Shown here one piece after another: positions 30,303-60,498 of a stretch of 64,000 nucleotides of DNA. The translations under genes were made by a program, and so were the position numbers. How positions within the stretch are numbered: position 1 is the first letter of the stretch; every line of letters begins with the position of its first letter. The notes beneath the pieces were generated by a model, which searched no databases, was not told the origin of the DNA, and saw only the letters and a list, made by a program, of their open reading frames with translations. The stretch is from NCBI GenBank assembly GCA_963971285.1, contig OZ020254.1:1922001-1986000 (forward strand), read 5' to 3'. This DNA comes from Astropecten irregularis (taxonomy: Eukaryota; Echinodermata; Asteroidea; Paxillosida; Astropectinidae).

Positions 30303-33300
30303 TTACTGGTTGGAAGCATAGTGGTCATGTCGTATGAGCCTTAGGTTGAAGTCGTACTCAGCCACAGCTAGGTATGTAAACATCTCCTGCAGAATGTACA
30401 GGTCACGTGCATTGCGCATGGATACGTTGTATTCCGGTTCCATGGTAACGGTAGGAGGAGTAGGGAGGCCATTTGGGAAGAAACCGAGGTGATCCATCTA
30501 TGATCAAAAGAAAGAGAAACATGTCATTAGTATTTAGTATTTGGAATTTTTTCCTGAAACTTTTTTAACATTTAGCATTTAGTTTTTAGAAAACTAGATA
30601 ATAGTAGGTTTGATGTCGAGAAGAATTTTTTAGCCAGCAGCTTTAAATATTTTCAGCAACTTTCTGGGACTTGAAGATAAATATCAATCACAATTTCAAG
30701 AAAAACTATAATTTGTCTTTCAGAGAAAACAAACAAACAAACAGCAACAACATTGTCTATCAGTTTTGCTTCAGGATTATTCAATGTCCCCAAAATGGCT
30801 ATTTTAGATCAAGGAAAAAAAAAACGAAATTCCAAATTTTTGTGGCACCTCTTATACTCATCGACCCCAATTGGGTAATTGGTTATATAAAGGCCTTTTC
30901 AGAAAATGCAAAAAAAAACCTCTTGCGAGTTTTTTCATGCTTGGGAAATTTCTCAAAGATTCACCAGGGACGTCGGTCAATCTCACGCACTGGCGTCCTT
31001 TCACACGATGACAATTTTGTAACATTTCTCAAGCATGGACGAAACTCGCAAACCTTGCGAGGTTTTTAACTTTGTGTGAAAATGTCTTAAAGGCAGCGTA
31101 CAGGATTTGCATGGCCTCCAAACAAAACAAATATTGTATTTGAGACAGAAAATTGACTCAACAGTTCGTAAACAGTGTAAACAGTCACCATGGGAAATTT
31201 TGGTTCATCAGATGCTGTGTTTTTCAAGAAAATCAAGATTTAGTGTCTTATTAAACAGATTGTTCGTCCGAACAATTTAGTAGCATTTCGAAAGCGTGGT
31301 GTAACCATGAAGGATTCGGAGGGGGGCAAGATTATTTCGGCCGTATTTCTGCTATCCAGATGAACAAAGCGTAAAAAGCTACATGAAACAACGTCTGTAA
31401 GGAAGTTTAAGACCTTCACTTATGTTTAAGTACCAAATTCAGCCAAAACGCATATCTTTGCAAATCCTATATGTTCACTTTAAATTACACTTAGTCTGTG
31501 ATTAATTTTTGGTCGTGTCTCAGAACTTACCAGTGTTTCAATGATGGCGATCACACGTGCCAACCTGGAGCGGATGACGTCAAACTGTGGCTGGAAGTCC
31601 TTGGGACTGTTGGATTCACTTTCGTCCAGTGTCACATAAAGCATGAACTGCTTATAAGCCTGCAGGCCAGCTCGGTGCAACTGCAAGATGTTGCTTTCCT
31701 GAAAACCAAAGAAAATGAAAATCGTTTTAATGATTGCTTTCAAATAATAATTTGTTTGTCTTGTCAAATCAGAATATTTGAAAATTCAGCAAAATTTGGT
31801 TAAGCACGATTGGACGGTATACAAGTAATAAACTGTTCAAGTAATAAACTGCTGCAAACTGCTCATCAGCCAAAATAATGACTTGAAATTTATATAAAAT
31901 GCTTGGAGTTAGGAGAGCCTATGGCGGTTTCGATCTTAGCAGGATCTTAATCGAAGGCAACGATTGGGGTGGCTTTTGAATTTATAGCGAGACTCAAATG
32001 AGATTGACTCGATCAGTATCTACACTAGCAGACCAGGGGCCAATTTCGTGGAGCTGCTAAGCACAAAAAATTGCTTAGCACAAAAATGTCTTGCCCAATA
32101 AAACAAACAACCATTAAAATACCATTTGATATTCATGGTCAGCGAACAACAGCCAAAAGAACAATCACAAGTGATACACATCACATGGAAATGTTGTTGT
32201 TAATCCTGTTTTTATTAAGACAGAAATGTCTTGCTTGGCAATTTGTTTGTGCTAAGCAGCTCCGTGAAATTGGCACCTGGTTTGTGACGTTTTAAAAACG
32301 CAAAAAAGTATGGTGTATTATTTTGAGGCGCTTTCCTTCGTGAACAGAGTGCCTAGATTATAATGTAAATGGTTACATTGTAAAGGTTGTTTTGTAAAAC
32401 GTTTTTTGTACTCACGTTCATGGCGAATCTGTCCGCCATTGTCAGGTCGCTCAGGTCGGGTATGCCATCAATGTCCATAGGAGGTACGTGAATATCAGAA
32501 TCGTAGAAACGGTCCATTTTCTGAGGAAGTTTAAAAAAAAGATACATTATTCAAATTGCTTATTTTAGTATGTTTTATTTGTCAATAATTGGTGCCAATT
32601 TATATAAAAATTAATTAAATTGCAGCCTTTTATTTAGAACGGCAATAACAAAGTTTCAATAAATTGAATTTTTTTATATCTCAAATTCCCTACACCATAC
32701 AGAGTTTTATCTTTTATATGTTACGTTGATTGATAAGCAAACACCATATCAAAACTCGTCAGCTGAAGTGTATGTGTGCATTCTCTGTGTGATAATGCCA
32801 AATGCCGAAAGATAGAAGTACTGTACCCCTAAATAGAAACTAGAACTATATCGCATACGAGTGCATTTACCTCGACATTTCAGTGACGACACAAAGGCTT
32901 TATGATCTCAGAGTCTGAATGAGCCTCTGTTTACTTTCGAAATAAATGTTTTTGATCAACAAGGATCTGTATTTCAAGCTGAACTATGGGCATACAGGTA
33001 CAGTGAAGTGGTGTTGCACAATAATGATTGTGGAATAGGATGATCGCGGTACGATTACAAATCTAATGTTAGATCAACGAATTATCTGTAGCTTTGTTTG
33101 TATCAGAACGAGTGAAGGGAAATGGCTACACGATAACTATTTTGTTTTATTTGAAAAAACTTTTTGTATTAAAAAAATCAGCTTACAAATATGATATTTA
33201 ATCGTCTAAGTTGGTTATTTTTCGAGGATTTAAAACAAAAATCATAATTATGAACAATACATATTCCGAAATATGCTTTGTTTTAGGTGAAAATGTTACT

Positions 33301-34673
33301 TATGTCTCAAGTTTATCTCGTGATGACGTAATGATAATTTTCTGTATTATTTTTTTAATAATCAGCATGTTTAAGAAATTCAAATTCACACATGTCCAAC
33401 AAGAATGACGATTTTACATAAACGAAAAAAAAATAGAAATGTCTGGTTTGGTGAAAAGGGGCAATAAAAGGTTCGGTATTTTTTTTAATGATTTCAAGGT
33501 ACTATGCTTTGGTAAGGTTGATAGAACAGCTGCGGTCTGTTCATAATTTGATTTGCCATATTGGAATAAAAATAAACCTGTGAAATTATACGCTTAATTG
33601 AGCATCGCAAACAGTAGAAAACAGCGAAAAACCGTTGCAATTGGTACGCGAAATTGTGAGGTAATTGTAATTGTGAGGTTTTGATCTCGGAGATCAAAAC
33701 TGATTTCGGTCTTTCTTTCACTAATTTCTGGATAAATGTACCATTTCAGGCGGAAATATTTTATTGGTATGTTTCTTCATACCCTGAAAGTAAAACGTAA
33801 ATCTGTGAACATTTCTGTTTGGGTATGCTACCAATCATGTACTGTACCTTACAAAATGATAGCAGTAATACTCACGTATTCATCATAGGTTGTTTTCTGA
33901 TTGCTCCGTAGTTGGATCATTTCTTGCCTCAGGTTACGGTACAATTGCAAAGTCAGGATGTCATCCGGGTCTTGCGTACTGGTGGTTTGGAGTGGTATTC
34001 CGGTCGGTGCTCCTGTAACGGCCAGGATACATGCTGGGTAAATACAAAAATATATGTTACTAATTGCCACGTGTAATTATTCCATTTGGGGCCTAGAGAA
34101 CATCTCGGAACGTGACAATAATTAATCATGGTGGCCAAATAATTTTAAACTCTTTCAGCTAGATGATCGATTTCTTGGCTTGGCAACCCCAAAACGGTTG
34201 GATTGAACAATTAAAAAGCTAAAATAACATACTTGTTACAATGCTTTACAAAAAAATTAACATAAGGCTTTAAAATTGTTCATGAAATTTTTAACTTGGA
34301 AACTAAAAGAATTATATACAAACACACCGAATAGATAGCATAGCTAGCATGAACATCAAAGTTAAACAGGCCTATACAACTCAACAAAGTTCAGAAGCAT
34401 AATAAATTACAGACAAAATACAAATATGAATTTTAAGCGAAATAGTAAGCTCGAGCACAAACTAAATGGTTCTGGATTTTGTTTAGTTCCTTCCAATAGT
34501 ATTACAAAGTTGTGGGTTTTTTTTTTTTTTTTTTTCAATATTCACAATTTTTCGTTCTATTTGCTGCACATTTTGTATAATATTATCTCAGTAGCTGGTG
34601 TAGTAAATAAACGTAACTTACCCGAAGCGAAAATCACCATCAAAAGTGAAATGCAGTGAGTTAAGTTGTCCAT
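30303..34673 (-). CDS. Secreted four-helix cytokine, IL-6/CNTF/CLCF1-like (cytokine A, 5 exons)
   Basis: Exons in transcript order: 34622-34673, 33876-34033, 32416-32520, 31531-31698, 30303-30497. All are bounded by GT/AG, with intron phases 1-0-0-0, giving 225 residues. Residues 1-25 form a signal peptide (hydrophobic SLLMVIFASACILAV, likely cleaved near VTG/AP). The rest predicts as four helices: A about 45-70 (exon 2), an AB loop in exon 3 containing DGIPDLSDLT, B about 106-130 and C about 136-165 (exon 4), D about 188-216 (exon 5). Helix D reads RDLYILQEMFTYLAVAEYDF, close to the L..L.EL..W......D pattern of CNTF, CLCF1 and cardiotrophin. One helix per exon block with phases 1-0-0-0 is the known layout of IL-6 and G-CSF genes. 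The mature part has no cysteine; sequons are at N105 (across the exon 3/4 junction) and N185. Its homologue lies at 53-60.5 kb in divergent orientation. The gene model is firm; family assignment is by pattern, since sequence identity in this fold is low. Confidence 0.82.
31087..31483 (+). mobile_element. K3 element (TTAAAGGCAGCGTACAGGAT ends), full length
   Basis: 397 bp between TTAA at 31087-31090 and 31480-31483. Landmarks GTAAACAGTCACCATGGGAA, AATCAAGATTTAGTGT and a GTTCGTCCGAAC palindrome. In cytokine A intron 4, 48 bp from exon 4. Confidence 0.8.
31826..31958 (+). repeat. TAGCAGGATC-family repeat in cytokine A intron 3
   Basis: AATAAACTGCTGCAAACTGC, AATGACTTGAAAT, GCTTGGAGTTAGGAGAGCCT, TTAGCAGGATC. 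Confidence 0.62.
32037..32277 (+). repeat. P2b repeat (sister family of P2) in cytokine A intron 3
   Basis: Ends GCCAATTTCGTGGAGCTGCT and complement; interior TGTCTTGCCCAATAAAACAA and GCGAACAACAGCC. About 240 bp, similar design to P2 but with CTAAG replacing CTTAAG at the ends. Confidence 0.8.
33495..33852 (+). mobile_element. K2 MITE, diverged, in cytokine A intron 2
   Basis: The right half is clear K2/K1 text and the left half is strongly diverged. It ends 24 bp from the cytokine A exon 2 donor side. Confidence 0.72.
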
Positions 34674-34802
34674 TGTCGGTTCTTGTCTCGGTGTATATGT
34701 TAGCTGCTTCAATTTTTGCATCTCTAAGTTCACTTCGATAATAAGTCTTTTTCAAACCTGAATCCATCAATTTATATTCTCCGAGACAAAGACCGACAAT
34801 TG
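34670..34802 (-). promoter_or_regulatory. Inverted repeat ending at the cytokine A start codon (possible leader hairpin)
   Basis: On the minus strand, ATTGTCGGTCTTTGTCTCGG (within 34774-34802) is the complement of the stretch just before and including the ATG (34671-34698) at 18 of 20 positions, with about 75 bases between. If transcription starts beyond 34802, the start codon would sit at the base of a stem. It could instead be the ends of a small transposon that supplied the leader. Confidence 0.5.
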
Positions 34803-35869
34803 TAATTATTTTTAAACCCATTACTTCTTACCTTAAAACAGCAAAGGTAAAGTTGTCCAGCAAGAACGAAATCCAGAGATCCAGGTGTGCAGAGATAATG
34901 TGAAATGTGAAAAACGTAGTGGAAATCTTACAGGTGCATGTCGATTACATCATTTTCGCTACGGACCCGGCTACCGTTGTCGAAATGACATAGCCCGCTC
35001 CATAGTGCTGACCTTGGTACATATGCCTCAATTCCAAAGTTCTAACACGGTGACTCATTCCTTTTGTTGTGGGGAACCCCTCATTTACCTGGCAAAGAAA
35101 AAAACTAAACCGAAAGAGAACTAGGGTTATTCAATACAGGTAACAATGGATCCTTTGAGGCAACTATTCCATATTCATATTTGCTATTTTGGGTAAGCGA
35201 ATGAACTTACTTTTCAAGTAGGCTCTTCCGGGTTAGGCCTATTGCGCAATCACGCATAATGCATACGGCAAACATAATGACTGCCACTAACGAACACAAT
35301 ATACCGTGATGAATGATGTGTACACAATTTGTTTGATTGACAAGAATAAGTGTACATTCTATGGTAGGTCTTTGTTGGTGTAATAACTGTGTGGTCTTTA
35401 GTCCTCCCGCTGACAACACAAATAACGGAGAATTAATTGACCATAACAAACTACTTAAATTTGGCGAACTCATATGAGTCATATTTCATGACATATTGCA
35501 CGAACAAGATATTGCATAAATTGAGGCCTAGTGTAGACGGACAAACTTTTCATTCATTCTTTTGGTCAAAATTACATCCAAATAAAATGTATACAAACAA
35601 ATCTCAAGACCTATGCAATAGCATGACCTGTTTTGTATGCAAATGAAAAGACTGGTGCATCTCGAAAATGACTATTGAGTCTTTTGTTGGCACATGCTCG
35701 CTCCTGCTCGGTCGTAGCTTAGCAATTTCGAGCAATCACAATACCCATTGTCCACCAGGATAATAACAATAATTATATGAAAAGTAAACTTCTTGTCAAT
35801 AGTACGCTGGTCCTTATCTGCTCCTACCTCAAAACTTCAAACATCTCTTTCATAACACCTTGCCCAAAC
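34803..35869. other. Upstream region of cytokine A
   Basis: Likely promoter side of cytokine A. No TATA or repeat family recognised; the small open frames lack any recognisable protein. Confidence 0.35.
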
Positions 35870-36227
35870 TTAAAGGTACAGTACAGGATTGGTAACAAAC
35901 CAAAACAGAAATGTTCGCACATATTTACCATAACGTACACGGTATAAAGATCATGTCATTATAGAAAACCTCTGCTTAAATATCATTCTGCCCGAAATGT
36001 TATTATTTGGTTTAATATAAAAGTGTAAAACACAAATAATTTACGTTTCGGCGAGATCAAAAAAATTCTTTATGTCGTTTTTAAATTCGCTATTCTCTCA
36101 TGACTCATCAGATGTCCGATTGAGCTCAAATTGTCACAGGCTAAGTTATTATTCATGTACATGGTGAATCAGACAAAGTGCGGGTGCTGTTCTGTGACAT
36201 TTTATCAATCATGTATTATACCTTTAA
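35870..36227 (-). mobile_element. K2 MITE, full length
   Basis: TTAA at 35870-35873 and 36224-36227 with all K2 landmarks. About 1.2 kb upstream of the cytokine A start. Confidence 0.86.
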
Positions 36228-36950
36228 CTCGTTGTCCGTTATTGAGAAATCACTATCGCCGAGCTGTTCTACAATTATGGTGTAAAATTTGAATTATAAG
36301 CTCAATATCACAATTGCTCGACAGAAACGAAACTCACACTTCTTCGGCCTTTTCTGTTTGATTCGTCAAAATTATCCCCACAAACTGATACATTTAAACC
36401 AAAAAACAAAAATAACGTGGATAATTTCATTTTGGTCGAAGTTAGAACGAAACTAATTGAATTAATTTCACCAGTGTGCTCGTCTTAGAAAAACAAATGG
36501 ACAAAACTTTCAAAATGATAAAATGTCCACTATTTGCCCTTGACAAATTTGATTGGTCTTGCATCATTAATACATGTGTGTTTCAGCCACTGCATCCGGT
36601 ACTAGCCCACTCCAAGATTACACTTCTCGAAGCCAGAAAGAAATGGGCGGGTTGGTTTCAAAAGTGGGCATATTCTTTCAGATTTAAAACAGAAAGTTTG
36701 TACACGCCATATAAGTATTTTCAATAGGCAATATGCGCATGTTTTCACACAATGATATAATCAAATATTAATAGTAGTAAAATATAATGTAGGCCTATGT
36801 AATGTTGCAAATTTCAACGCAATGATCTTATTTCTGATAATGAGAACGAACCCAAGAATTATCGGTCCTTAATATTCAGTCAAACTAGTTTCATAGTTCC
36901 CAAGAAGCAATTTTTTAAAAATAAAAACCGACCAAGCCAAAGTTTCCTAT

Positions 36951-37138
36951 CAGTGGAACACCACTATAACAAACACCGCTTTACCGAACATTGGCTCTAC
37001 CAAACATCCGTCATCCTTGGCTCCCAATGTTTTATGTACAATGTATAGGCATGCTGAACAGTGTTCACTAGAACGAACGACCACTATAACGAACAATTTC
37101 TGTGCACCTCATCGTGTTCGTTATAGTAGCGTTCCATT
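36951..37138. mobile_element. Mariner/Tigger-style MITE
   Basis: 188 bp; ends GTGGAACACCACTATAACAA and TTCGTTATAGTAGCGTTCCA, with a second internal ACGACCACTATAACGAACAA block. Confidence 0.68.
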
Positions 37139-37633
37139 ACCTTCAATGGTATTTCCACAATTTACCAAAATGCTATGAGACATGTAAACTTACTTCCATT
37201 TTTTCCTATTATTCCCAATGACCACAGATAGATATGTAAAGGGACATCTTGAGCCAATCAATTGTTATTGTTTGATTGCAAACCCCAAACTGTGATTTTC
37301 TTCACCAACCGTTCCCTTATAATGTCATTACTTGTGTGGCTTGAATAAAGACTACTCCCATTTAGTACTAATGTGGAAGTCGGGCAAGAACATTTCCCGC
37401 TGTAATTTGTATTTCTGTTTCATTAATAATTCCCTGTCAAGAAAAGAAACAATATTATTAGGTTGTTATACCTGTTTTGGTAAAAACCGATGATTTGTCA
37501 AATATTAGGCCTAGTCATCACAAGTTAAACTTCTAATGATTGTACATGAATCTTTCATATGACGTGAACTGTACGTTGCAATTAATATACATGTAGAAAG
37601 ATCCGTACCTGTGTACATGAATACACTTCCTCT

Positions 37634-37874
37634 GGGACCAATTTCATGGAGCTGTTAAGCACAACGAAAATCGCTCAGAACAAAATGTCTTGCCCAATAA
37701 ACAAACCACCATTAAAAATTCCGTTTGATATTCATAGTCAGCGAACAACAGCAAAAGAACAATCACAAGCGATACACAACACGTAGAAATGTGGTTGTTA
37801 ATCCTGCTTTTATTAAGACAGAAATTTCATGGTTAAAATTGTTTTGTGCGAAGCAGGGCCGTGAAATTGGTCCC
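37634..37874 (+). repeat. P2b repeat, full length
   Basis: Closely matches 32037-32277 along its whole length. Confidence 0.8.
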
Positions 37875-37999
37875 TGTACTGAGGCTACTGATTGCCACTC
37901 AGAAGACACATTATACCTTCGATCTACACTAAGCTCTGTCCCTAGGAATCAGCTAAGAACCCTGCATGTGCAACAGTATTATGATGAGTAAATCTCATA

Positions 38000-38385
38000 T
38001 ATAGAGCTGCTTTAAGGTAGTATCATACTTTGGTAAGAGACCAAAACAGAAATGTTCACAGATGTACGTATAACTTACAGAGTATGAAGATGGTGCTGGT
38101 AGAAACCTACCGTTAACATTTTAGAGAAAAGACTTAAGAAATACTGTGGCCGTTTTTCACGATTTTCTCAAAATGTGGGCACCGTATGGGACTGAAATTT
38201 TCACAGATGACTGTGACTGTATCTTCCTTGATATATTTGCCCATGAATCTGTACTTCTTAGACAAAACAACAAAGTATGATACTAAGTTTAAGCATGAAA
38301 AGTCTTCCTTGATCAAACAGGATTAATTACCAACCAAATTCCCATGTGATGTTTATTGCTTTTGAATCGGTATTCGACAGCCTCT
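38000..38385 (-). repeat. P2 repeat interrupted by K1
   Basis: TAGAGCTGC before and GCATGAAAAGTCTTCCTTGA after the K1 copy at 38012-38292; cut off near ATTCGACAG. Confidence 0.8.
38012..38292 (-). mobile_element. K1 MITE, inverted, inserted in a P2 repeat
   Basis: TTAA at both borders (38012-38015, 38289-38292). Internal deletion between the CGGTATG half and the ACTTAAG half. P2 sequence flanks it: GAGCTGC on the left, GCATGAAAAGTCTTCC on the right. Confidence 0.85.
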
Positions 38386-39163
38386 TCTGAAATCTTGGTC
38401 AAGGAATAATAACCGAATAACGTCAGTCATCTGCTCAAAAAGTAATCTTGAATCAAAACGATCCGATTGGTTTATTCCTCGATTGTATCAACACAAGAGG
38501 GCGCACACTTCATTTGGCATTTTCCGGTGCACTATAACCAATAAATAAAAAATTACTTCGAAAAGAGAAAAGACCCCCATCGAAGAGTACTTCAGGTTTT
38601 GCGACAATTGTAGTTTGAATTGTAATCCGATCCGTTGGGATATTTTCGAGAATGGCTCCGTTTGCCGATGAAAAGTCTACACATTATTACTCCCTAGCGT
38701 ATAACGGAAAATGGCACCCCTCCCCTTTCGAAGCCAAAAAGAACCCACTTCAGAGCCAAACGTCGAAACACAGCCTGACCCCATAAGGCCCAGGTTGTAA
38801 TAACTTGTCACCCCTTAACTCGACAAACCCATAGTCATGTGACTGGCGACATTCATACTGATTTGTTGACGCTGGGGGCAGCATACAGCACACTGCTCAG
38901 AACGAAAGTATTATGGTATACTATTTACGATACACAACGTACAGTGAATCGACATACACACGCGACGTAAATGGTACGACGCGACTACACGGCGGCCCCG
39001 TCGCATCGTGCCGTCGCGACGCGTCGTGCTGTCTCTTTCTTGCCATTACTTTTGTACATACATTCTTGCGTCGCGTCATCCCGTCGCGTTGCCTTGTTCT
39101 TTTCCTCTGCATAAACGTTGGCCCTTTCATCGTATAATACTATGGTGTGCTATGATTTTACGA
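38386..39163. other. Unassigned stretch with CpG-rich patch
   Basis: 38960-39080 carries many CGTCGCG/GCGACG words resembling a decayed simple repeat; the rest is featureless. Confidence 0.4.
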
Positions 39164-39171
39164 CACGTATT

Positions 39172-39376
39172 CAGTGGCGTCACCAGACTTTTGAGTCTGG
39201 GGGGGGGGGGGGGGGGCACAAGGGGGGCACTAGCAATTGTTGGGGGGGGGGGCACTACAACATATATTAAATTTTTTTCACCAACCCAAATCTCAAATGG
39301 GGAGCACGCGGGGGGTACGAGGTTTTCCGGGGGGGGGGGGGCACGTGCCGCCCCCCCCCCCTTGGCGACGCCACTG
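39172..39376 (+). mobile_element. hAT-like MITE with 8-bp target duplication and G-rich core
   Basis: Inverted ends CAGTGGCGTCACCA and TTGGCGACGCCACTG. The 8-bp duplication CACGTATT lies at 39164-39171 and 39377-39384, the hAT hallmark. The core holds several runs of 9-18 G and one C-run, suitable for quadruplex formation. Confidence 0.78.
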
Positions 39377-40053
39377 CACGTATTGTGTCGTAGTGTCGTC
39401 GTGTCAAACGGTCTGTCGGTCTGGCGCCCTCCTCAACAATCATTGTATTATTGTTGCCATTTTTCACATCAAGAGGGCGCTCTAATAACTTCCAACAGTA
39501 TGGAAAAAAAAATTCTTTTTGTTTTCAACTTTCGGTATGAGAAATTTTTCAAATTCCCCCGAGAAAATGTGCTTTTCTCCCAAACCGACTTAGCTCAAGG
39601 TAAATAGAATTATGATTATTTATTATGTAACTTCATTTGTATTCATTTTAATTTATACGTGGAAACATTCTTGGGATATTATTTGTCGGTGACTTCATAG
39701 TTGTACCAAGCAGGAAATAATTATTGTTTGTACCGAATCAATAGATACAACGCCCTCACAGTTGTACAAGGGAGACGGGGGAGGGGCGCTCCACAGAGAG
39801 TAGGCATCCGGCCTCCTCCCGACAAAAGGCTATCAAAAGTACCAAGATTCTCTACAATGATGAGCTTGACCTCTGTTCCCTTTAATGACTGGAAAATCTA
39901 GGCACTGCACCGAGGACTCAGCCAGGAATATCCGTTATAACCTGTTCAGTGATCACATGTAATTAATCGTTTGAAGATAACAGATCTATGCATACAAATA
40001 TGATAGCAAGAAGTGATACCTATTACGCCAGTGACCATGTTTCATAGAGCTGC

Positions 40054-40398
40054 TTAAAGGGGGCATATAGGATTTGCAAAGATGGGCGTTTTAGCTGAAT
40101 TTGGTACTTAAACTTCATTACAGACGTTGTTTCATGTACCTTTTTACGCTTTGTTCATTTGGACAGCAAACATGCGGCCGTAATAATCGTGCCCCCTCCG
40201 AATCCTTCATGCTACTAAATCGTTCGGACGGACGATCTTTTTAAAAGACACTAAATCTTGATTTGCTTGAAAAACCCAGTATGAACCAAGACTTCCCATG
40301 GTGACTGTTTGCACTGTTTACGAACTGTTGAGTCAATTTTCTGTCTCAAACTCAATACATTTTTTGGAGGCCTTGCAAATCCCGTACACTGCCTTTAA
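40054..40398 (-). mobile_element. K3 element, inverted, inserted at the TTAA of a P2 repeat
   Basis: TTAA at 40054-40057 and 40395-40398, with P2 text (AGAGCTGC, then GTACCAAAATTTGC) directly outside. Interior matches 31087-31483 on the opposite strand. Confidence 0.86.
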
Positions 40399-40551
40399 GT
40401 ACCAAAATTTGCTTAAGCACCCAAAAACTTAGTAAAATAAAATCAGTATGCCAGCCAAAACACCTTGTGAATGTTATGCTCAGCAAACAATGGCCGAATA
40501 CAAGTCAAAAGCAGTAAACGTCACATACAAATTTGGTTGGCAATCATGTTT

Positions 40552-40713
40552 GATCAAAAAGATTTTCGGTCGTTGTTTTATTAATTTCTGGATAAAAAAC
40601 ACCATTTCAGGCGGTATGTTTCTACCACCACCATCTTCATACCCTCTAAGTTATACTTAAATCTGTGAACATTTCTGTTTTGGCTTCTTACCAAAGTATG
40701 ATACAACCTTTAA
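40552..40713 (+). mobile_element. K1 MITE right half fused into a P2 repeat
   Basis: The P2 text switches to the K1 interior at a shared GATCAA word, and K1 then runs to its right end and TTAA at 40710-40713. P2 resumes with GCAGATCTATGAAATTGG. Confidence 0.82.
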
Positions 40714-40735
40714 GCAGATCTATGAAATTGGTCCC

Positions 40736-42672: not shown

Positions 42673-42679
42673 TATTTTG

Positions 42680-43677: not shown

Positions 43678-43759
43678 GGTAGCATGGCCGAGCGGTCTAA
43701 GGCGCTGGTTTTAGGCACCAGTCATTTCGATGGCGTGGGTTCGAATCCCACTGCTGCCA
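43678..43759 (+). tRNA. tRNA-Leu (anticodon UAG)
   Basis: An 82-base cloverleaf. Acceptor stem GGTAGCA pairs with TGCTGCC (one G-U), with discriminator A at 43759. The A box lies in TGGCCGAGCGG and the B box is GGTTCGAATCC. The anticodon stem CTGGT/ACCAG (43705-43709, 43717-43721) encloses the TAG anticodon at 43712-43714, reading CUA. A long variable arm follows, as in class II leucine tRNAs. No intron and no encoded CCA, as expected for a nuclear gene. Every stem is intact, unlike the tRNA-derived SINEs in this window. It lies between the two divergent cytokine genes. Confidence 0.96.
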
Positions 43760-43762
43760 TTA

Positions 43763-49876: not shown

Positions 49877-49890
49877 AGCGGTATGTGAGT

Positions 49891-50056: not shown

Positions 50057-50456
50057 ATGTACGAAACAGGATTGGTAACACGCCCAAACAAAAATGTTAA
50101 TAGATTTACATCCATCCATTTATCAATACCATCAGGCTATCAAGGTGTTCGCTCTTTTTCTACGCACTTTTTTAACAGCCACAAACATTTCTCCCTTTTT
50201 ACTCTTATTTTTGAAGTTAGAAAGGTTGGCCAATGCCGCATATGGTATGATTTAAGTGCATAGCATTTCATATGAAAACCGACACTTCCTTTAAAAAACT
50301 GAATTAAAAAATTGAGAAAAAATGATAATCTTAGATAATGAAAAAAAAACAGTGTTGCGCATATTTAGTCCCTACATATTATAAGTTGCACCTCATCAAA
50401 CAAAATTTGACGATATGTAAATTCCCAGATTAAAACTATAGCTGTGACACTATCGG

Positions 50457-50663
50457 TTAAAGGTACATGATTTGTATTACACACACAGAAATGTTCACAG
50501 ATTTGCATATAACTGTTTTTATAAGAAAAATTTAGTCGGGTTTTTGCTATTTTCTGGTGACTCAGAACTGATGTCTGATTGAGCTCAAATATTCACAGGT
50601 GTATTCATGTGCATGTTGGATCAGACAAAGTGTGAGTGCTGTTCTGTGACCTTCAATACCTTT
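50457..50663 (-). mobile_element. K2 MITE, internally deleted
   Basis: Left TTAA at 50457; the middle third is missing and the right end has decayed to CAATACCTTTG. Confidence 0.75.
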
Positions 50664-51294
50664 GATGTACATGTAAATTATGCAATGTACATAGCCTACT
50701 ATCTGATACTATTTTGATAAGCACATCAATAATGATGTGTCCGAGGACAGCTTTGAACTAAAAAAAAAGTCCGTTCGAGGACAAGAATTACCCAGCAAAC
50801 AGAGAACGTTTTAAAACGAAACGTTTTATTCATTTAAAATGAAAAAATAATGTTTTCTTCTAAAAAAAAAACCCGTGAATTTCCAGAATTTCCTTGAATT
50901 TAATCATGTAAGAAAAAATTTTCTTGAATCGTTCGCACACCGTTTTGTGGACGTTATAAAATTTGCACATGGCCGTTCTTTCGAAAACGCTTCAGTCCCG
51001 AACGATTTATGACACGTCTTCACAACGTTTTAAAAACGTGACAGTATAAAAAAAAAGCTTGGATAATTTGTTTATTAATATGGTTTCATCATTTAAATGT
51101 TCTTCCATTGTATCACACAGGACACGTATACACCCTGAGGGCATTGCAATCATTTAACGAATGTCGTGGTATAGTAGTACATGTACATTGAAGTCGAACT
51201 TCATTTCAGAATACATGATGCAATAAACAATGCGATCATTGACCCTAGAATATAAGGGGTCCTATATTTGTCGTAACTATTCACAGTTCCACAT
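50664..51294. other. Stretch with repeated ACGTTTTAAAACG words
   Basis: Between 50805 and 51045 variants of AACGTTTTAAAACG recur at least four times. Probably a decayed repeat; not classified. Confidence 0.4.
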
Positions 51295-51776
51295 TTAAAG
51301 GTAGTTTCATACTTTGGTATTAAGAAACCAAAACAGAAATGTTCGCAGATTTACCTATAACTTTCAGGGTATGAAGATGATGGTGGTATAGAAACATTCG
51401 TTAAGATTTTTTCACCTGACAATGGTGTATTTATTCAGAAATTAGTAAAACAACGATCTTTTTGATCTTTTAAAAGATCCAAAATAAAATAGAAAAGGCT
51501 TAAGAAATACTGCGGCTGTTTTTCACTGTTTTCCCAAAAAGCGGGCATCGTATGGGCCTGAAATTTTCACAGATGACTGTTAGTGTTACTGTATCTGTAT
51601 TGATATGATGAATATTAAATGATTTTGGTCGGGAAAATAGATAATAATTATGCAAATTAGGCTTGCCCTTCACCGACGTGGATGAGCACCGTATACTCAG
51701 TGCTCAGTGCTGTATTGATATGTTTGCCCATGTATTTCTTTGATAAAAGTATGATATTACCTTTAATTTCGGTACG
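51295..51776 (-). mobile_element. K1 MITE, inverted, carrying a 102-bp insertion
   Basis: TTAA at 51295-51298 and 51773-51776. The copy is interrupted near its end by 51608-51709. Confidence 0.85.
51608..51709. mobile_element. 102-bp insertion with 13-bp target duplication
   Basis: CTGTATTGATATG is present at 51595-51607 and again at 51710-51722, exactly flanking sequence foreign to K1. A 13-bp duplication suggests LINE-type target-primed insertion. No poly-A or terminal repeat is obvious and I do not recognise the insert. Confidence 0.6.
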
Positions 51777-52190
51777 GCAAGCGTAATGAAACCGAAAACC
51801 AGACGTAATATTTCAGACAGTGTCATGTATAAAACCGCGACGAGGTTTCCGTAAATTTGTAGTTTTGAAAAGGACATTCTCTAATTGATGGGGTTAAAGG
51901 GGTGACACTCGGATGTAAGGACTGCGGCGGCAAAAAAAGAGAGAACAAAATAGAGGGCGCCACGAAAGCACCTCTGTGCACCTCACCTGGGTTTCTTTGC
52001 TTCTCACTGCATTATCTCCCATGCCACATTCATAAATTGGTGTACCCCTGTGTTCACACTCATAAATCTAACCCTAGCTATGTTACAGGTTATTTTCTTT
52101 TTAAACAGATGCCGTTTTTTAGATATGAAAAGTGTGAAAATTAATAGAACACAAATCAAGTTCCTTAACCTAGAAATGCTTCAACGATCT

Positions 52191-52340
52191 GGGTTGATTT
52201 CAGCAAACTCTTCATAACTTACTATATTAATCTTAGGTCTTACGAGGCATTGCAACCCAATGTAGGATAGGCCCCTTTACAATGGGTTATCCTTCGTAAC
52301 GCGAGTTACGATCCATCGGAAGGCTTCGTAGAATCGACCC
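52191..52340 (+). repeat. P6 palindromic repeat, full length
   Basis: GGGTTGATTTCAGCAAACTC at the left and GTAGAATCGACCC at the right; about 0.7 kb upstream of the cytokine B start. Confidence 0.8.
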
Positions 52341-53047
52341 ATAAAATGTTTTTGTTCTGTTTTATTCCAGTGGTAGAACAGATATATCCACACACTTAAT
52401 GGTTTTTACGCTACATTCGTGAAATTAAAGATATCTTAAATTGACAGAGAAAAATCAGAATCTAGAATTGTATGCACAAATATTAACGGAAGAGAATTTA
52501 ACAATAAAAAAAAAGATTGCCGATAACGCGTTTCGTTCTCTCATGTGTTGAAATTTAAATTGTTGCATATCATTTCTCTTTATTTCGAGTATTGGCCAAT
52601 TAAAAGTTGGTAAGGAAAAAAATGTAACAAACAAAAGTACTTCCTGGACGAAGATTTTGTCCGAGCGTTCGTCTGTCCATGACACGGAAAAAATGACTTC
52701 TGAGGAAGCTGGAGGCTGTACACGGGGAAATAAGCTACAGGTATAGAAACTACAATAACTAACACAGCTACGACCACTGACAACGCAAACGAATTTTCGA
52801 TAGTTTCTGGATTACCTAATATCTTTTGATTGGGTCTATTTATATTGAAGTGATTCTTGTATTCTGAATTGCACGCACGGCTGGGTAATATTGGCCTACA
52901 CACACTGATTGATTTCGCAAGGATTCGCGATGAATCAAATATAAACATTCGCCAAAGTAGGTTTTACTCCAGAACAGTTCCAAAGCGCTAACCGAGAAGG
53001 GAATCCTTGTATCAAATTAGGAAAATTACATTGTACAGACGAGAATC
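52341..53047. other. Cytokine B 5' flank
   Basis: Probable promoter and 5' UTR; no TATA box obvious and minus-strand frames here are unsupported. Confidence 0.35.
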
Positions 53048-56000
53048 ATGGCCACTATCACGTACACCATCATCGCAATGGCGTTAATTACGGGTAAGTA
53101 GCTGAGAAATCGGGGGATGGTCGCGGGGGAAAATGCGCATTTATACGGTTGAATTATTCGCCTCCATGTGCTGCGAAATATTCAATCTCGGACCAATTTC
53201 ATACAGCTGCCTATAAGCACATAAAAATGCTTAAGCATGAAAAGTCTTCCTTGATCAAAAAGAATTACCAACCAAATTTTCAATGTGATATTTACTGCTT
53301 TTGACTTGTATTCGGCCATTGTTTGCTGAGCATAACATTCACAAGGCGTTTTGGCTGTCACACTGATTTTATTTACCAACGTTTTTGGTGCTTAAGAAAA
53401 TGTTGGTGCTTAAGCAGCTCTATATATGAAATTTGCCCTTGTTCATTTACAAAATTGTATACTCCCAAAACAAAGCATTCTGTGAAAGCTTTTGCCTTAG
53501 TATTGCAGGAACCATTAATATTATAGTAGTTTTACAATTTGCATTTATAAATGCATTCAATGCATATTTCCATTTGATCTCAATCATGAAATATTTGCTG
53601 GGATTTTCACATTTTAAAGTAATTGTGTAGGCCTTGTAATATTTTATTATCTGAACACTAAGAAGCGCAAAGCAATTAAAAGCACCTTTTTAATTTCTTG
53701 TCATCGATGACAGCAAAACTTAGTAAATGTTATTGCATTTTTTCGTTATTAATTTTTTAATCAATTTATTTTAATAAAATGCATCATGCATTTTTAACAT
53801 CAACATAAAGTTGAAAAAAATAATATAATTTCTGTATCCGAAATTCACAAAAACTGAAAAATTATTTTAATTTCTGGGTATTAATTCTTGTATTTAGACG
53901 GACAAATTATGTGATTTTCAAAATGCTTTATCACAAAGAAAAACGTGAGCAAGCATAATAAACTGCTGCAGACTGTTCACCAATAAAAAATAATGACCTG
54001 AAATGGTATATACCGCTTAGAGTAAGGAAGGCCTGACGTTACGATCCTTGAAGAAAATGTCTTCATGACCCACGTAACACTAAGCGAAAATGCATGTGTA
54101 TAGGCCTACATTTATATTTGTGTGATATTTACTCCACCTATGTCACCTCTAGTTTCGTTTTATCGTGGGGAAAAATATGGAAATTATGCACTCTGTCCCT
54201 ATCAACATCAGGAATTCTCCCTCTGTCACTGTTTTTAGGAAAGACTTATTTGTTAATCATATTTGTTCCCATATAACCCATGTCCTTGTCAGTTGTTGTT
54301 TGTATTCGTTCTGTACAGCGCTTTGATCTCCTTGGAAAGGCGCTTTATAAATACCAGTTATTATTATTATCAGATTCTAAACCAGGACAAGTTTTTGGTT
54401 GCAATAACTTTTCAAAAGAGATTAAATAACTTCCAAGGGAATATTTCTTTTTAAAAATATTCATATCCAACGAGAAGAGTACATGTATGTTACTTTAAAA
54501 CAGGAAACTTTGTTTTGATAATGTATTTCGCGATCAAATATTGGTTTTAAACAATCGTATTCTCCATAAATCTTTGAAGCTCTAGCCCTGTCCGCATCCA
54601 TCGGGGCTACACCCATCCCCATCAATCCTACTAGGAGTCTCTGTAGTCCCATGATGACAGCCTCCCCAGATGACTGCCCCGAGATTGAGACCACATTACC
54701 GACCGGCCTGGACTCAAGCACTACCACCACGCCAAGCCCGGCAGCGCTCTGCCCGTCCCACAAGGCCGACAAGGCACTCCTGTCTCGCCCAGCAACTAGT
54801 CCAACGGATGACGGACCCCTCGTAGTTGGAGGTTTGAGGGAGTTTCTCAGGTCCAACAAGATGAAAATGTGTGAGCTTCATGAAGAATATGTAAGTGCAT
54901 GGAAAGTAATTTCATACCTATACATGTTGCGATATGAATTTGGAAAATTAGATTACTGGTATGGATTTTTTATGTCTTCTATCATTGAACCAGCATTGAC
55001 ATATGTCTCTGGTGGTTTGTACCTTTAAAGGTAGTATCATACTTTGGTTTTTGTCAAAGAAATACAGTTTCATGAGCACAAATATCAAAGAAGATACAAT
55101 AACAGTCCTCTGTGAAAATTTGTGTCCCATACGGTGCCCACGTTTTTTAGAAAACAGTTAAAAACGCCAACAGTGTTTTTAAAATCTTCTCACAGGATTT
55201 TCCGTTGATCAAAATTGTTTAGGGTCAATTAGTTTTACTCTTTTATGGATAAATACAGTATTCCAGGCAGACAAAAAATTGAACGGTAATTTCTACCATC
55301 ACCATCTTCATACCCTGTAAGTTATAAGTAAATCTGTGGAGATTTCTGTTTCGGTATGCTACCAAAGTATGATACTACCTTTAACATTAATCAAGTTGGC
55401 GTGACTTTAACCTATAAGCATTCTACCAATCACTCATAGGTCATTCATCACTATTATTTAGCAGGTTTATTGCTTCTTATCTATTATTTTATCTATATAA
55501 TGTACAATTCCAAGCGTAATATGCCTAATGGTTTACGAATGGAAGGGATTGTCCACATATAAAATGTTGAAATATCCAACATCGCTTCCTATTCTAAAAC
55601 AGACTGTCCAGTTATTGACTTCGGAAATGAGCATAAAACTACGGAATGGTATGATGAATCATTCCAATGCCGTGGCGTATAGTGCATGCAATCAGAGCAC
55701 ATTATCCGATAAAGGAATTTTTTTAAACTTCTTTAATTTCCAGTTGCTTATAAATACTGTCGCAATGCTTATTTACTCACAAGTGACTAAGACAGTTAGC
55801 GTTGATTTTATAAGGAAATTCTTTTTTTTTTGGCAGTATATCTTTTACTTTCAGTGTATGCCTGGTAAACAATCCCACATTTAAATCACTATAATATTTT
55901 TATTTTTTTCCAATTTTGAAATAATATGCATTCCCTTAATATAAAGTTAGAACACATGATTGGTAACAGAACAGCACGCACACTTTGTCTGATCAAATAT

Positions 56001-59000
56001 GTACATGAAATAATAAACCTGTGAAAATTTGAGCTCGATCTGAAATCTGAGTCACGAGAAAAACCAACTCGATTTTTCTTATAAAACATAAAGAATGGAT
56101 TTGATCTTATCCCGAGATCAAAACTGTTTTCGGTCGTTGTTTGACTAATTTCGAGATAAATACACCATTTCAGTTGAACATTTTTTAACAGTACGTTTCT
56201 AGCAGCAGCATCTTAATACCCTAAAAGTTCTACATAAATCTGTGAACATTTCTGTTTGGGTATGTTACCAATTCTTTACTATACCTTTAATCGACAAGAA
56301 CGTGGAATTGCTAATGTCATATTTTTTTTATTAAATGTAAACAAATTACTCTTGCAATCATTCGATTGTGTTTTTTTTATTTCCAATAAGATGAAATGGT
56401 TGCATTACCTTTCGCCTGCTCATAAAAATTCCTTTAATTACAATTGCTGGACATTAAAAATCTATGCGTGATATTGGTTATTGCACGATGCTGGAATTAC
56501 TGTAACCATGCAGGGATGGTAAAAAATGTGTTTTTCTCGAGCAGAACCTATACTCATTATGCCACATTTTCATTATGGCGAAAATGTGAGCAGAATTGAT
56601 TGAAACGCAACCTTTTCAGGGTCAGGTTGTTCCATTTTAATTAAATGACATGACTAATAGACCCCATTTCTTTTCCCCAAAATGAAATGACACCATACCG
56701 CCATCAATAACAGCTGAATCAATTTACTTTATTCGTGGGACTCTCAAGTCACAGCTACAAGGAACTATTTACCATGCTAGCCTCACTGACCAAATTCTCA
56801 TGGTCATTATTATGATGACAAACCTTTTCCCCATCACTAGCCATGTATGACGTCATTGCTAAGCGAGTATTTGCCGCCTAATAGTACAGAGAGTATTATG
56901 GTGTGGCAGACCGCAGATTATAGGGGAATCCCCATGAAACCTTATGATGTCAACATTTTGCGTGAATAACTGTATGGTGGGAAAGCCAGGCAATACCCGC
57001 TGTCTACTCTTGTATATACCGTCATATCCGTTCACTGCGAAAAGAAAAGTATAACCGACTGCCAGCAGACTAAGCACTATCAGATAGCCATTATAGCAAT
57101 GACCTATACGAAAACCTCATGGTAGTAAAAAATAATACCAATTTGTGATAATGGTATAATTGAGACAAACCTGAGTCCAATTTCATAGAGCTGCTTAAAG
57201 GTAGTATCATACTTTGGTACTAGACCAAAACAGAAATGTTCACAGATTTACGTATAACTTACAGAGTATGAAACTGATGCTAGTAGAAACCTACCGTTAA
57301 AATGTTTCCGCCTGAAATGGTTTATTTATCCAGAAATGAGTAAAACAACGACCGAAAATCTTTTTGATCTTTTAAAAGATCAAAAATAACAAAAAAGACT
57401 TAAGAAATACTGTGGCCGTTTTTAAGTGCTTTCGAAAAAGTGGGCAACGTATGGGACTGACATTTTGAGAGATTACTTTTACTGTATGTCTTAATAGTTT
57501 TGCCCACGAATCTGTATTTCTTTGACAAAAACCAAAATATTTTATAACCTTTAGCTCTATGAAAGAGGCCTCAGAGCTGAGACAAATTAAGACCTGCTAA
57601 TCATCATCTTATACAAGTGGAAACAACACTTACAATAAGTAAAATATATAAATAAGAATCCCCTTCGATTTAATTGTTCCAAGCTTTGAAAAACGTAATC
57701 AAGGTTTTTCGTTGCGAAGGGTGCTAAATGGGTCTAAAATATACCGCCTTTTTTATCTACCAAATTTTTAGCACAAACAATGATAGACAGTTTGAGTTTT
57801 ATAACAATATATATGTAGATGTATTTAACTTCACATGAGTTTTGTTTACAATAAACCTTTAAATACATGCACTATAATGGAGACATTTTGACACTGGACC
57901 AGAATATGTATGTAATGTTATGTACATGTATAATGTGTGAATATTTTAGTAAACTTTGAATACGCGCAAAATAACAAGATTGTCTACAGGACTTCATGGG
58001 GTTTTTCCCAACGGAACTTGCACAGGTTGTTACAAGGCTTTTTTAAAACTATCTCCAGAACTTTCTTTAAAGGAAAAACTACTTCATTTTTCTGGACGGT
58101 TCCCCAGTGACTCAGTTTTTCCTTGGTAGGTCTAGTCAACGGAAATCCTAAAGGCAAATCGATGTGTTTTTATTTGCAATCTCTTGCGCAGTTCCATCTC
58201 TGTCATTTTTACGGTCAACCGGTAGAGTGTATTATTATTATTATAGGTAAATCTGTGAAGAATCCTCTTTCGGTATGCCACCAAAGTATGATACAGTATA
58301 CTATACCTTTAATGATACACGGAAATGGAAATGGCCTTCCGCTATAAATACAGGAAATGAATTGGCACAATAAGGTTATTTATAAATGTATAATGGATAT
58401 GTACAAAATGTTGGACGGGAACGGGTTAACAAAAACAGAACAAAGTTCGTTGGTAATCCATTTATTATCCCTACGATCGAAGACGTCATATACCAATGAC
58501 TGAAAGAAACAAAGAAAGTACAGTACAGTAAGTTTACTCTCTCCATTGCTTGCATCAGCTAGATGGAGCTGGGCTTGAGAGTTGGACATTGTCGATGTTT
58601 TTTTTAGGCCGTGTCCCAAATTCTCTAGCTGCGACCGCATTAATAACACACAAGTCTATGGAAATGGCTGCAGTCACTGGCTAGTGGCTGCCATAGGTGC
58701 GTGCGTAATTTGCAGCCGGCCGCAGCCAGATAATGGCAGACTTGTGAGACGTCGACTGAAAACTGTTTTTTGCTATCAATGAGCATGCGCGCACATTTGT
58801 GAGCATGCGCGCGTTGTTGTGCGCTTGCGTGCGCGTGCGCTGTTGACCGTGGACGGATTGCTCCATAGTCTCCCATTGGGACACGGCCTTTTCGATCGTC
58901 ACATGCTGTTGGATTTCCACCTATGTCTACTTTCCTCTTTTATTCTCGTTACAGAAATCGCACTTTGACGAAGAGGATCTTAACACAATGCCGCAGCTAG

Positions 59001-60498
59001 ATATTGACGTTTTACCGGACATGGATGGTTTCTCTAGTCCTGCAAGGCTTAACCACTCCAGACACAACAACGTAAGATTCATTTCGGTACTTGATCAGCT
59101 TTCATTAAACATTTTTTTAACTTTCAGGCCCAACGATTTGTTTGTAAATATCAACCCCATTTTACGACATGAAACAAAATCGTTTCCTTCTTTCAAAATA
59201 ATTATGTATAATTACGTGATGTGTAACTGATCATTGGGAGGGAAAAATGGTAACGTACGGAGCTCTAGAGGTGCCGATCCGACTTGTTGAGATCCTGAGA
59301 TAAATTCTCTTGGGATGTCGTCATCTTGATTTTGTGATGTCGTCAACCCATGATTCAACATCTCAGGTCGATGTCGTCATTTTGCCCGTATAAAATGTCG
59401 TCACTGTCCCGATATAATTTATCTCTGGATCTCAACAAGTCGGATGGCACTTCTAGAGCTCCGTAGTAACGGTACAGTCAAACGCAGACTGAAAGTCGAC
59501 ATACACCCACGTACGTAAAGAAATATCCGTTTCATATTCAAACTCTCTGTGTTCTGTCCATGTTGCAGTTGACACAGCTCCTGTTCGAGCATGCGTCATT
59601 CCTGACGGATTTTATCCGTGCGCTGGACACTCTCCTGCAAGACCAGGATACGCTAACATTCAGGAAGCTATGTAACTTATCACATGTGGACGAAGTCATG
59701 AGCGGGATGTGCCGCATCCTCTACGGAATTCACCGGATTGTAAGTATTTTCCCGTTTATTTGTTAAAGGTAATATCAAACTTTGGTTTTAGCAAAGAAAT
59801 ACAGATTCATGGGCAAAAATATCAAGACAGATACAGTAACAGTCATCTGTGAAAATTTCAGTCCAATACGGTTCCCACTTTTTGAGAAAACAGTGAAAAA
59901 CAGCAACGGTATTTCTTAAGTCTTTTTTTTTTTTTTTTTATCTTTTAAAAGATCAAAAAGATTTTCGGTCGTTGTTTTACTAGTAATTTTTGGATAAATA
60001 CACCATTTCAGGCGGGAGAATGTTAACGGTATGTTTCTACCACCGCCATCTTCATACCCTGTAAGTTATACGTAAATCTGTGAACATTTCTGTTTTTGGC
60101 TTCTTACCAAAGTATGATACTATACAGTACCTTTAACGACCAAAATAAAGATCGATTTATAGAGAATAATACTTAATTCTTTTATACATTTCTTGAGAGG
60201 GATCGCAGATTCTGAAACGTTTTTAAAGAGTTAAACTTAAGTCATTGAAAGTTTTTTTGTTATTCCTCTAAAGCTCCGGATCTGTGGCTTCGACCAATCC
60301 CAGCTACAGCAACTGAACACCACGCCTGTCGTTGGGTACGTTCCCCCGCAGCAAAACTTCCAAATTATTATGCGGGATTTGGTGATCTTGAGAGAGGTTC
60401 GGCATTACGCCGACATCGCAGACTACAACCTGGGTGACCTGCTGGACGGAGGAGTTGAAGGTATCAACGACTGTGGCAGCTTCCAGCAGCTTGAGTGA
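53048..60498 (+). CDS. Secreted four-helix cytokine, paralogue of cytokine A, with Thr/Ser/Pro-rich N-terminal extension (cytokine B, 5 exons)
   Basis: Exons: 53048-53093, 54580-54890, 58955-59071, 59569-59739, 60274-60498, with GTAAG-type donors and phases 1-0-0-0, giving 289 residues. Signal peptide 1-25 (YTIIAMALITALALSASIGA, then TPIP). Residues about 26-95 are rich in Thr, Ser and Pro with three cysteines, an extension absent from cytokine A. The helical part then matches A exon by exon: exon 2 ends HEEY in B and YDEY in A, exon 3 opens with Lys in both, exon 4 is 57 against 56 codons, and helix D has MRDLVILREVRHYADIADYN. A sequon spans the exon 3/4 junction (N158) exactly as in A; others are N152, N194 and N230. 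Eight cysteines follow the signal peptide. The frame ends at TGA 60496-60498. Intron 2 is 4.1 kb and full of MITEs; introns 3 and 4 are about 0.5 kb. Proposed role: secreted ligand for a gp130-type receptor, by inference only. Confidence 0.8.
53191..53438 (-). repeat. P2 repeat, intact, in cytokine B intron 1
   Basis: Both ends present and interior GTTTGCTGAGCATAACATTC; begins 98 bp after the exon 1 donor. Confidence 0.82.
53955..54052 (+). repeat. TAGCAGGATC-family fragment in cytokine B intron 1
   Basis: ATAATAAACTGCTGCAGACT, AATAATGACCTGAAAT and AAGGCCTGACGTTACGATCC. Confidence 0.6.
55025..55384 (+). mobile_element. K1 MITE, full length, in cytokine B intron 2
   Basis: TTAA at 55025-55028 and 55381-55384; 134 bp downstream of the exon 2 donor. 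Confidence 0.88.
55943..56290 (+). mobile_element. K2 MITE in cytokine B intron 2
   Basis: The left end is decayed (AAAGTTAGAACACATGATTGG); the right end is intact with TTAA 56287-56290. Confidence 0.83.
57177..57572. repeat. P2 terminal palindrome around a K1 insertion
   Basis: Only the outer P2 ends remain on either side of K1 (57195-57553), with no P2 interior. The host copy was apparently a deletion derivative of about 40 bp. Confidence 0.7.
57195..57553 (-). mobile_element. K1 MITE, inverted, inserted in a P2 end palindrome (cytokine B intron 2)
   Basis: Left flank TTTCATAGAGCTGC and right flank AGCTCTATGAAA are the two ends of a P2 repeat, so the element sits at its TTAA. The right K1 end is slightly decayed. 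Confidence 0.85.
57690..57862 (+). mobile_element. K6 element, partial (cytokine B intron 2)
   Basis: Shares GTTTTTCGTTGCGAA-type text and AGCACAAACAATGATAGACA with the 45883 copy; right end TTAA at 57859-57862. Confidence 0.68.
58243..58312 (+). mobile_element. K1 MITE, right-end fragment (cytokine B intron 2)
   Basis: TAGGTAAATCTGTGAAG through CCTTTAA; the remainder is missing. Confidence 0.7.
58606..58890. mobile_element. MITE with AGGCCGTGTCCCAA ends (cytokine B intron 2)
   Basis: 285 bp; ends AGGCCGTGTCCCAA and TTGGGACACGGCCTT; interior with alternating GCATGCGCGC stretches. Ends 64 bp before exon 3. Superfamily not assigned. Confidence 0.75.
59256..59465. mobile_element. T12 MITE in cytokine B intron 3
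   Basis: 210 bp with inverted ends TACGGAGCTCTAGAGGTGCC and complement; 6-bp duplication GTAACG at 59250-59255 and 59466-59471. Interior has repeated GATGTCGTCA words. Confidence 0.8.
59763..60136 (+). mobile_element. K1 MITE, full length, in cytokine B intron 4
   Basis: TTAA at 59763-59766 and 60133-60136. It starts 23 bp after the exon 4 donor and fills most of the 534-bp intron. Confidence 0.88.

Follow-up and report, generated by a model that had tools for sequence, protein, structure and literature searches.

Two divergently oriented genes in the genome of the starfish Astropecten irregularis, here named A and B, are likely to encode two paralogous cytokines, secreted, built of four helices and of the IL-6 (gp130) type, derived from a pre-vertebrate ligand and closest to CLCF1 and IL-11. 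The genes lie in a window of 64,000 nucleotides (assembly GCA_963971285.1, contig OZ020254.1, positions 1,922,001 to 1,986,000 of the forward strand), and positions below are those of the window unless another locus is named. Gene A is located on the minus strand (34673 to 30303) with a product of 225 amino acids (aa), and gene B on the plus strand (53048 to 60498) with a product of 289 aa. Both could be rebuilt from the sequence with five coding exons each and with 18,375 bases between the start codons, at the place where an initial annotation of the window had described two secreted five-exon genes with divergent starts 18.4 kilobases (kb) apart. The membership of A in the IL-6 family, with CLCF1 and IL-11 closest and ranked above the other helical cytokines tested, is supported by sequence comparison. 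A and B are probably the first IL-6-type ligand pair recognized at the sequence level in an echinoderm, with a plausible receptor encoded in the same genome.

Similarity to CLCF1 and IL-11

The predicted proteins were aligned with a panel of 17 human helical cytokines, of which CLCF1 was taken from the PDB search; of the other 16 sequences, which did not come from a database, 15 score above the cut-off of their own Pfam family, with CTF1 below it. Pairwise alignments were expressed as z scores against 400 shuffles for A and B, and 200 for known pairs. The highest pairwise value for A is with IL-11 (z 12.9), in an alignment that runs from helix A through helix C and the Pro-rich C-D loop but ends before helix D, followed by CLCF1 (11.2), G-CSF (5.7) and CNTF (3.4). 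The known pairs gave 7.5 for CLCF1-CNTF, 8.0 for CLCF1-CTF1, 3.2-4.0 for CLCF1-IL-11 and 8.2-9.9 for IL-6-G-CSF. With shuffling confined to 14-residue windows, which keeps the regional composition, A retains z scores of 9.9 with IL-11 and 9.6 with CLCF1, and the reversed sequences of CLCF1 and IL-11 score 37 and 42 against A, compared with 84 and 90 in the forward direction. The alignment of A with CLCF1 is collinear through the helical core, running from helix A to helix D. Leptin and IFNA2 were considered as closest relatives and rejected, as by inspection their alignments pair non-corresponding stretches and are out of register.

A gapless block of 37 columns across the C-D loop and helix D is shared by CLCF1, A and B, with the pattern T.P.....P..........D...L.E common to all three. 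Within this block A and CLCF1 have 11 identities (z 6.8) and B and CLCF1 have eight (z 4.8), with none of 20,000 shuffles as good in either case. CLCF1 is the best of the 17 panel members here for both A (score 46, next 26) and B (16, next 12), and the C-D loop part of the block matches CLCF1 as well as the helix part does. The helix-D texts quoted in the initial annotation are both present in the sequence.

Profile comparison by hhalign gives a match of 89.6% between the A+B profile and a target of eight IL-6-family members (E-value (E) 1.9e-6, single comparison), 80.6% with CLCF1/CNTF/CTF1 and 60.0% with CLCF1 alone; for the first two targets it is mainly helices B to D that are aligned. A alone reaches 73.1%, 69.8% and 52.4% with the same three targets, aligned from helix A to helix D, and 6.9% with IL-11 alone. 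The A+B profile stays at or below 1.3% with all nine other single cytokines (IL12A, leptin, EPO, GH1, IL-2, IL-10, IL-4, IFNA2 and GM-CSF) and with all 17 reversed decoys, and at or below 1.0% with leptin, EPO, GH1, IL-2, IL-4, IL-10, GM-CSF and IFNA2. IL12A is itself placed in the IL-6 superfamily by some authors (PMC8226699).

In a search of 177,635 distinct PDB sequences, A has only seven matches at E<=10, six of which are IL-11 and one CLCF1 (E 0.017-0.037), and the A core alone retrieves the same seven sequences (E 0.02-0.041). This result is telling because nothing else is listed and because CLCF1 had been named beforehand in the initial annotation. As a control, a human CLCF1 fragment searched against the PDB recovers its own sequence along with five unrelated chains, missing every sister cytokine.

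Relationship of A and B

BLASTP aligns 241 residues of A and B with 22% identity (E 1e-5, single comparison), and the alignment of their cores has a z score of 10.6-12.4 against 400 shuffles. In the 37-column block described above, the two proteins share 13 identities (z 6.0), with none of 20,000 shuffles as good. The third exons can be aligned without gaps from the intron-2 junction, with eight of 35 residues identical and DID..PD common at the same offset; the gapless score of 25 was equalled in six of 20,000 shuffles, and all other offsets from -8 to +8 score 16 or less. Intron 2 lies at an equivalent aligned position in both genes. On these sequence comparisons B is a paralogue of A. A search of the genome with A found five places, all within A itself, and missed B, so that other paralogues may exist.

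Comparison with Known Ligands

The initial annotation had assigned the pair to an IL-6/CNTF type. The IL-6 family part of this assignment is supported by the sequence tests on A and by the paralogy of B, whereas the CNTF label is too narrow, since the FXXK motif is not conserved. In vertebrates it is the LIFR-binding members whose helix D carries this motif, in place of which IL-6, IL-11 and p28 use a tryptophan (PMC10022904). FXXK is lacking at the start of helix D in both A and B, so that neither is filed in the LIFR-binding subgroup of CNTF, LIF and CLCF1; the site-3 contact of IL-11 is made by a Trp (PMC10022904), whereas A and B contain no tryptophan at all. The Asp-Phe-Asn of CLCF1 (residues 201-203) is kept in A and appears as Asp-Tyr-Asn in B in the gapped alignment, and Trp94 of CLCF1 is replaced by Ala in A and Phe in B.

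The genes IL6 and CSF3 have five exons with intron phases 1-0-0-0, and the CLCF1 gene has three exons. A and B have the five exons and the 1-0-0-0 pattern of IL6 and CSF3. The CNTF intron presumably follows Tyr38, a point that the A-CNTF alignment would put exactly at intron 2 of A. The IL-10-family genes, IL3, IL21 and IFNL1 are unlike A and B in having five exons without split codons (PMC2654155).

Outside the vertebrates, Upd1-3 and Domeless of Drosophila provide a case of invertebrate ligands acting with a gp130-like receptor into JAK/STAT (PMC8226699, PMC13203501), and the similarity of Upd1-3 to IL-6 fell under the BLASTP threshold of a 2021 survey (PMC8226699).

A gp130-like Receptor and STAT in the Same Genome

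A genome search for gp130-like receptors, proposed with the initial annotation, identified one such gene at the locus C17 (Table 1). The Pfam profile PF09240 hits the genome weakly at three places, all below the cut-off (best E 0.189). The binding module of human gp130 hits it at 107, including one (E 0.227) at the position of the best PF09240 hit; this C17 locus was the one studied, and most of the others match the query in its second fn3 half. Within the 60 kb surrounding the C17 locus, the best two of 15 gp130 matches (E 1.3e-5 and 0.09 for that stretch) are in the right order, and the second contains WSDWS. The modelled product begins with domain 2, its first residue being assumed from the splice site, and is 636 residues long up to the stop codon. 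The two domains of the binding module are followed by an additional fn3 domain, a hydrophobic segment that is transmembrane-like, and a tail. Neither a signal peptide nor a domain 1 was found; these would lie upstream of the modelled exons. The tail contains YxxL motifs (YVQL twice, YRTL once, YTRL twice and YHRL once), and the juxtamembrane sequence LLKPVPNIS is one that we take to resemble box 1.

The best 10 PDB matches of the C17 binding module are all gp130 (E 1.5e-12 to 2e-11), and among the best 60 of 86 matches at E<=1 these are followed by CRLF1 (1.8e-8) and IL-12 receptor beta-2, with general fn3 proteins such as titin from 1e-7. In Pfam, fn3 (3.6e-16) and LIFR_D4 (2.6e-6) are above cut-off and IL6Ra-bind (6.7e-4) is below. 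A STAT_bind domain is above cut-off at one locus of the genome, C14 (6.7e-4), with two weaker pieces adjoining in order. Separately, fn3-like places matching the gp130 query are dense over approximately 90 kb on C16 (~423,000-516,000, plus strand), perhaps as one long fn3-repeat gene or a tandem family.

In the proposed mechanism, A and B would each fold as a long-chain up-up-down-down bundle and be released, plausibly by coelomocytes or other tissues, upon infection or injury. They would join two copies of the gp130-like receptor, or this receptor and a second class I chain, by means of faces like sites 2 and 3. A JAK near the LLKPVPNIS sequence would phosphorylate tail tyrosines in their YxxL contexts, and the phosphorylated tyrosines would recruit STAT. 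The site-3 contact may be unlike both vertebrate modes, because the FXXK lysine is missing and no tryptophan is found where IL-6 and IL-11 have their helix-D Trp; as a guess, such an altered contact would fit an ancestral receptor with one type of chain. The sequence placement and the starfish host are in keeping with the description of the pair as gp130-type ligands outside vertebrates, and the gp130-type signalling itself we infer.

Contrary Evidence and Alternative Explanations

A number of results weigh against the assignment of A and B to the IL-6 family. In the panel alignments A has a z score of 5.7 with IFNA2 (6.3 with local windows), and B has 5.7 with CLCF1 (4.9) and 4.4 with leptin (5.2), so that leptin exceeds CLCF1 for B under local windows. 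As single hhalign targets IL-11 (0.3%), CNTF (0.2%) and CTF1 (2.3%) are missed by the A+B profile, as are the LIF/OSM pair (0.9%) and the IL-6/G-CSF pair (0.2%). B alone is at or below 1.6% against all 17 targets, and the family membership of B therefore rests on A. The PDB E-values of A (0.017-0.037) are not significant taken alone, and an unrelated chain reaches E 0.03 in the CLCF1 control search. With the A+B profile CLCF1 ranks first in the PDB (E 0.66), ahead of three unrelated chains (0.9-1.4), a weaker result than with A alone that is perhaps due to misaligned linkers, and the three PDB matches of B alone are all phage PM2 proteins. The receptor-binding residues diverge as well, with F178 and K181 of the CLCF1 FXXK motif replaced by Ser and Asn in A and by Phe and Ile in B, and the site-1 Arg197 by Val in A and Ala in B.

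Family profiles and protein databases likewise returned no relatives. The hidden Markov model search suggested with the initial annotation did not place the proteins, as Pfam gave no curated IL-6-group family for either: at E<=10 A has no match and B has two noise-level families. Human CTF1, in its panel sequence, is likewise below every Pfam cut-off, so a Pfam match is not a defining feature of the IL-6 family. In 5.8 billion proteins, starfish included, no relative was found at E<=10 for A (61 candidates) or for A+B (6450), a negative that is weak evidence of absence because the search requires shared five-residue words. Viral contigs and prokaryote genome contigs gave A+B no relatives among 152 and 54 pattern matches, respectively.

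These results bear on two other readings of the similarity. The better placed of them, which we consider unlikely, would make A and B helical cytokines that belong to an older stem type, class I (or class I/II), or to a separate echinoderm lineage rather than to the IL-6 family proper, with the likeness to CLCF1 and IL-11 that of a generic long-chain ancestor. Such an origin would accommodate the absence of any hhalign preference in B alone, the near equality of leptin and CLCF1 in the B alignments, the partial matches of A to IFNA2 and G-CSF, the unconserved FXXK and Arg197, and the failure of the A+B profile on most single members; however, A strongly prefers CLCF1 and IL-11, in register, where inspection shows the alignments with IFNA2 and leptin to be out of register, and the eight cytokines from leptin to IFNA2 listed above barely register with the A+B profile. 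More improbable still is a reading in which the two secreted helical proteins have no relation to cytokines and their similarity reflects a convergent amphipathic-helix composition. Low identity (22% between A and B, 11 of 37 residues in the best CLCF1 block), the missing Pfam match and marginal single-search E-values would fit convergence, but the z scores survive shuffling within local windows, reversed CLCF1 and IL-11 fall far below the forward sequences, reversed decoys stay at or below 1.3%, the match to CLCF1 is as good in the C-D loop as in the helix, and a gp130-like receptor gene is present in the genome. The assignment of A and B to the IL-6 family, closest to CLCF1 and IL-11, is therefore preferred here.

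Gene Models and Predicted Structure

All eight introns of A and B are GT-AG, with GTRAG donors in eight of eight and acceptors ending in AG in eight of eight, the phases are 1-0-0-0 in both genes, and the frames are open through all 10 exons (Table 1). That the models are artefacts of free splice-site choice by the annotating reader is very improbable: they were built from genomic sequence, but the uniform GTRAG donors, equal phases, aligned intron 2, 10 open exons and homologous spliced products all argue against it.

Table 1. Exons of genes A and B in the window, and the receptor gene at C17
Feature	Position	Strand	Content	Basis
A exon 1	34673-34622	-	Start codon and most of hydrophobic N-terminus	Donor gtaagt, phase 1; hydropathy
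A exon 2	34033-33876	-	Signal peptide end, linker, putative helix A	Acceptor cag, donor gtgagt, phase 0
A exon 3	32520-32416	-	Putative A-B loop (PPMDIDGIPDLSDL)	Gapless match to B exon 3
A exon 4	31698-31531	-	Putative helices B and C	AlphaFold2 single-exon model: helices 3-24, 32-55
A exon 5	30497-30303	-	C-D loop, putative helix D, stop	AlphaFold2 helix 22-63; CLCF1-like block
B exon 1	53048-53093	+	Start codon and hydrophobic N-terminus	Donor gtaagt, phase 1; hydropathy
B exon 2	54580-54890	+	Signal peptide end, long Thr/Pro/Ser-rich linker, putative helix A	Phase 0
B exon 3	58955-59071	+	Putative A-B loop (PQLDIDVLPDMDGF)	Gapless match to A exon 3
B exon 4	59569-59739	+	Putative helices B and C	Aligned to A exon 4
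B exon 5	60274-60498	+	C-D loop, putative helix D, C-terminal tail, stop	Sequence; helix-D block
gp130-like receptor gene	C17:16794304-16801620	+	9 exons	AG/GT borders

Both products begin with a hydrophobic stretch, with 11-residue Kyte-Doolittle peaks of 2.8 in A and 2.7 in B, in agreement with the signal peptides proposed previously; these leaders, judged by hydropathy only and not by a dedicated signal-peptide program, are typical of secreted proteins, which A and B are predicted to be. A has two cysteines, both inside the hydrophobic N-terminus, and mature A would thus be without cysteine; B has eight in all.

AlphaFold2 models were made for two single exons of A. Exon 4, with B exon 4 as the second row of the input, is modelled with the two helices given in Table 1 at a mean predicted local distance difference test (pLDDT) of 74.7 and a predicted template modelling score (pTM) of 0.42, and exon 5 as a 21-residue loop ahead of its helix (pLDDT 77.9, pTM 0.40). 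These models are compatible with helices B, C and D of a long-chain cytokine and do not discriminate between helical folds. Of the exons 2, 4 and 5 that had been described as helix-rich, the models bear this out for exons 4 and 5 of A. Neither result named in the initial annotation as refuting it, a fold other than the four-helix bundle or transcripts at odds with the exon joins, was obtained, on evidence that comprised single-exon models and genomic sequence.

Two further features of this region were noted by eye. A stretch between the A and B starts (36430-36338, minus strand), with MKLSTLFLFFGLNVSVCGDNFDESNRKGRRS ahead of a GTGAGT donor, is a candidate first exon of another secreted peptide gene. 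A dispersed repeat with inverted ends around AAAGGTAGTATCATACTTTGGT occurs in several copies in introns of the window, for example at ~55030-55390, 57200-57560 and 59760-60130.

Genomic Setting

The window lies within a 20.4-megabase (Mb) contig of a 475.7-Mb assembly and is therefore not a small contaminant. A neighbour of the pair is an intact single-exon gene for a rhodopsin-type G protein-coupled receptor (3667-5460, plus strand; PF00001, 9.4e-31). The best three of its 24 listed relatives are uncharacterized starfish proteins, with 52% identity in both Patiria miniata and Acanthaster planci and 48% in Asterias amurensis. As the best relatives of this neighbouring gene are starfish proteins, the host is a starfish, and the identities point to a genus different from these three. 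The window also contains a transfer RNA (tRNA) gene for Leu (anticodon tag, 43678-43759, plus strand) and a tRNA-Thr-like match (anticodon ggt, 14486-14558, minus strand).

Implications for the Origin of the Family

The IL-6-like factor of the starfish Asterias forbesi is reportedly an activity without a sequence. A link between this activity and A or B is a guess. The factor, an 'IL-6-like molecule' (Beck and Habicht 1996), likewise comes from a starfish and is cited as an invertebrate IL-6-like factor (PMC4503460, PMC8226699, PMC9465101), and one review counts it as an invertebrate IL-6 (PMC9465101).

The 2021 survey (PMC8226699) and a 2026 survey (PMC13203501) both report IL-6-family cytokines in vertebrates only and none in invertebrates, with the related receptors, JAK and STAT older than these vertebrate-only ligands (PMC8226699, PMC13203501). 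The 2026 survey filtered matches at BLAST E <= 1e-5 and identity >= 30% (PMC13203501), thresholds that A and B would probably not reach in comparisons with the vertebrate proteins of the family. Echinoderms are already known to have receptors of this type: the same survey lists a sea urchin IL6R (PMC13203501), and transcripts of an IL-6 receptor are increased in starfish with wasting disease (PMC4503460). The 2026 survey also names a crustacean lectin-type ligand (PMC13203501), and an older account states that cytokine receptor signalling is not seen in sea urchin (PMC3296744). Within the open-licence literature, preprints excluded and as far as the excerpts extend, no sequenced invertebrate gp130-type ligands were found beyond insect Upd and the crustacean lectin-type ligand.

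We lean towards the view that the gp130 ligand-receptor pair pre-dates the vertebrates, and that two CLCF1/IL-11-like ligands and a gp130-like signalling receptor persist in starfish, where the ligands were overlooked because their divergence puts them under the thresholds of searches; the IL-6-like activity reported from starfish may be due to one of the two. A and B are probably a known kind of ligand in an unexpected place. If this reading is true, the echinoderm pair would mean that the ligand family arose as early as the deuterostome ancestor, a testable ligand would become available for the receptors of these animals, and research on starfish immunity and regeneration would gain named genes.

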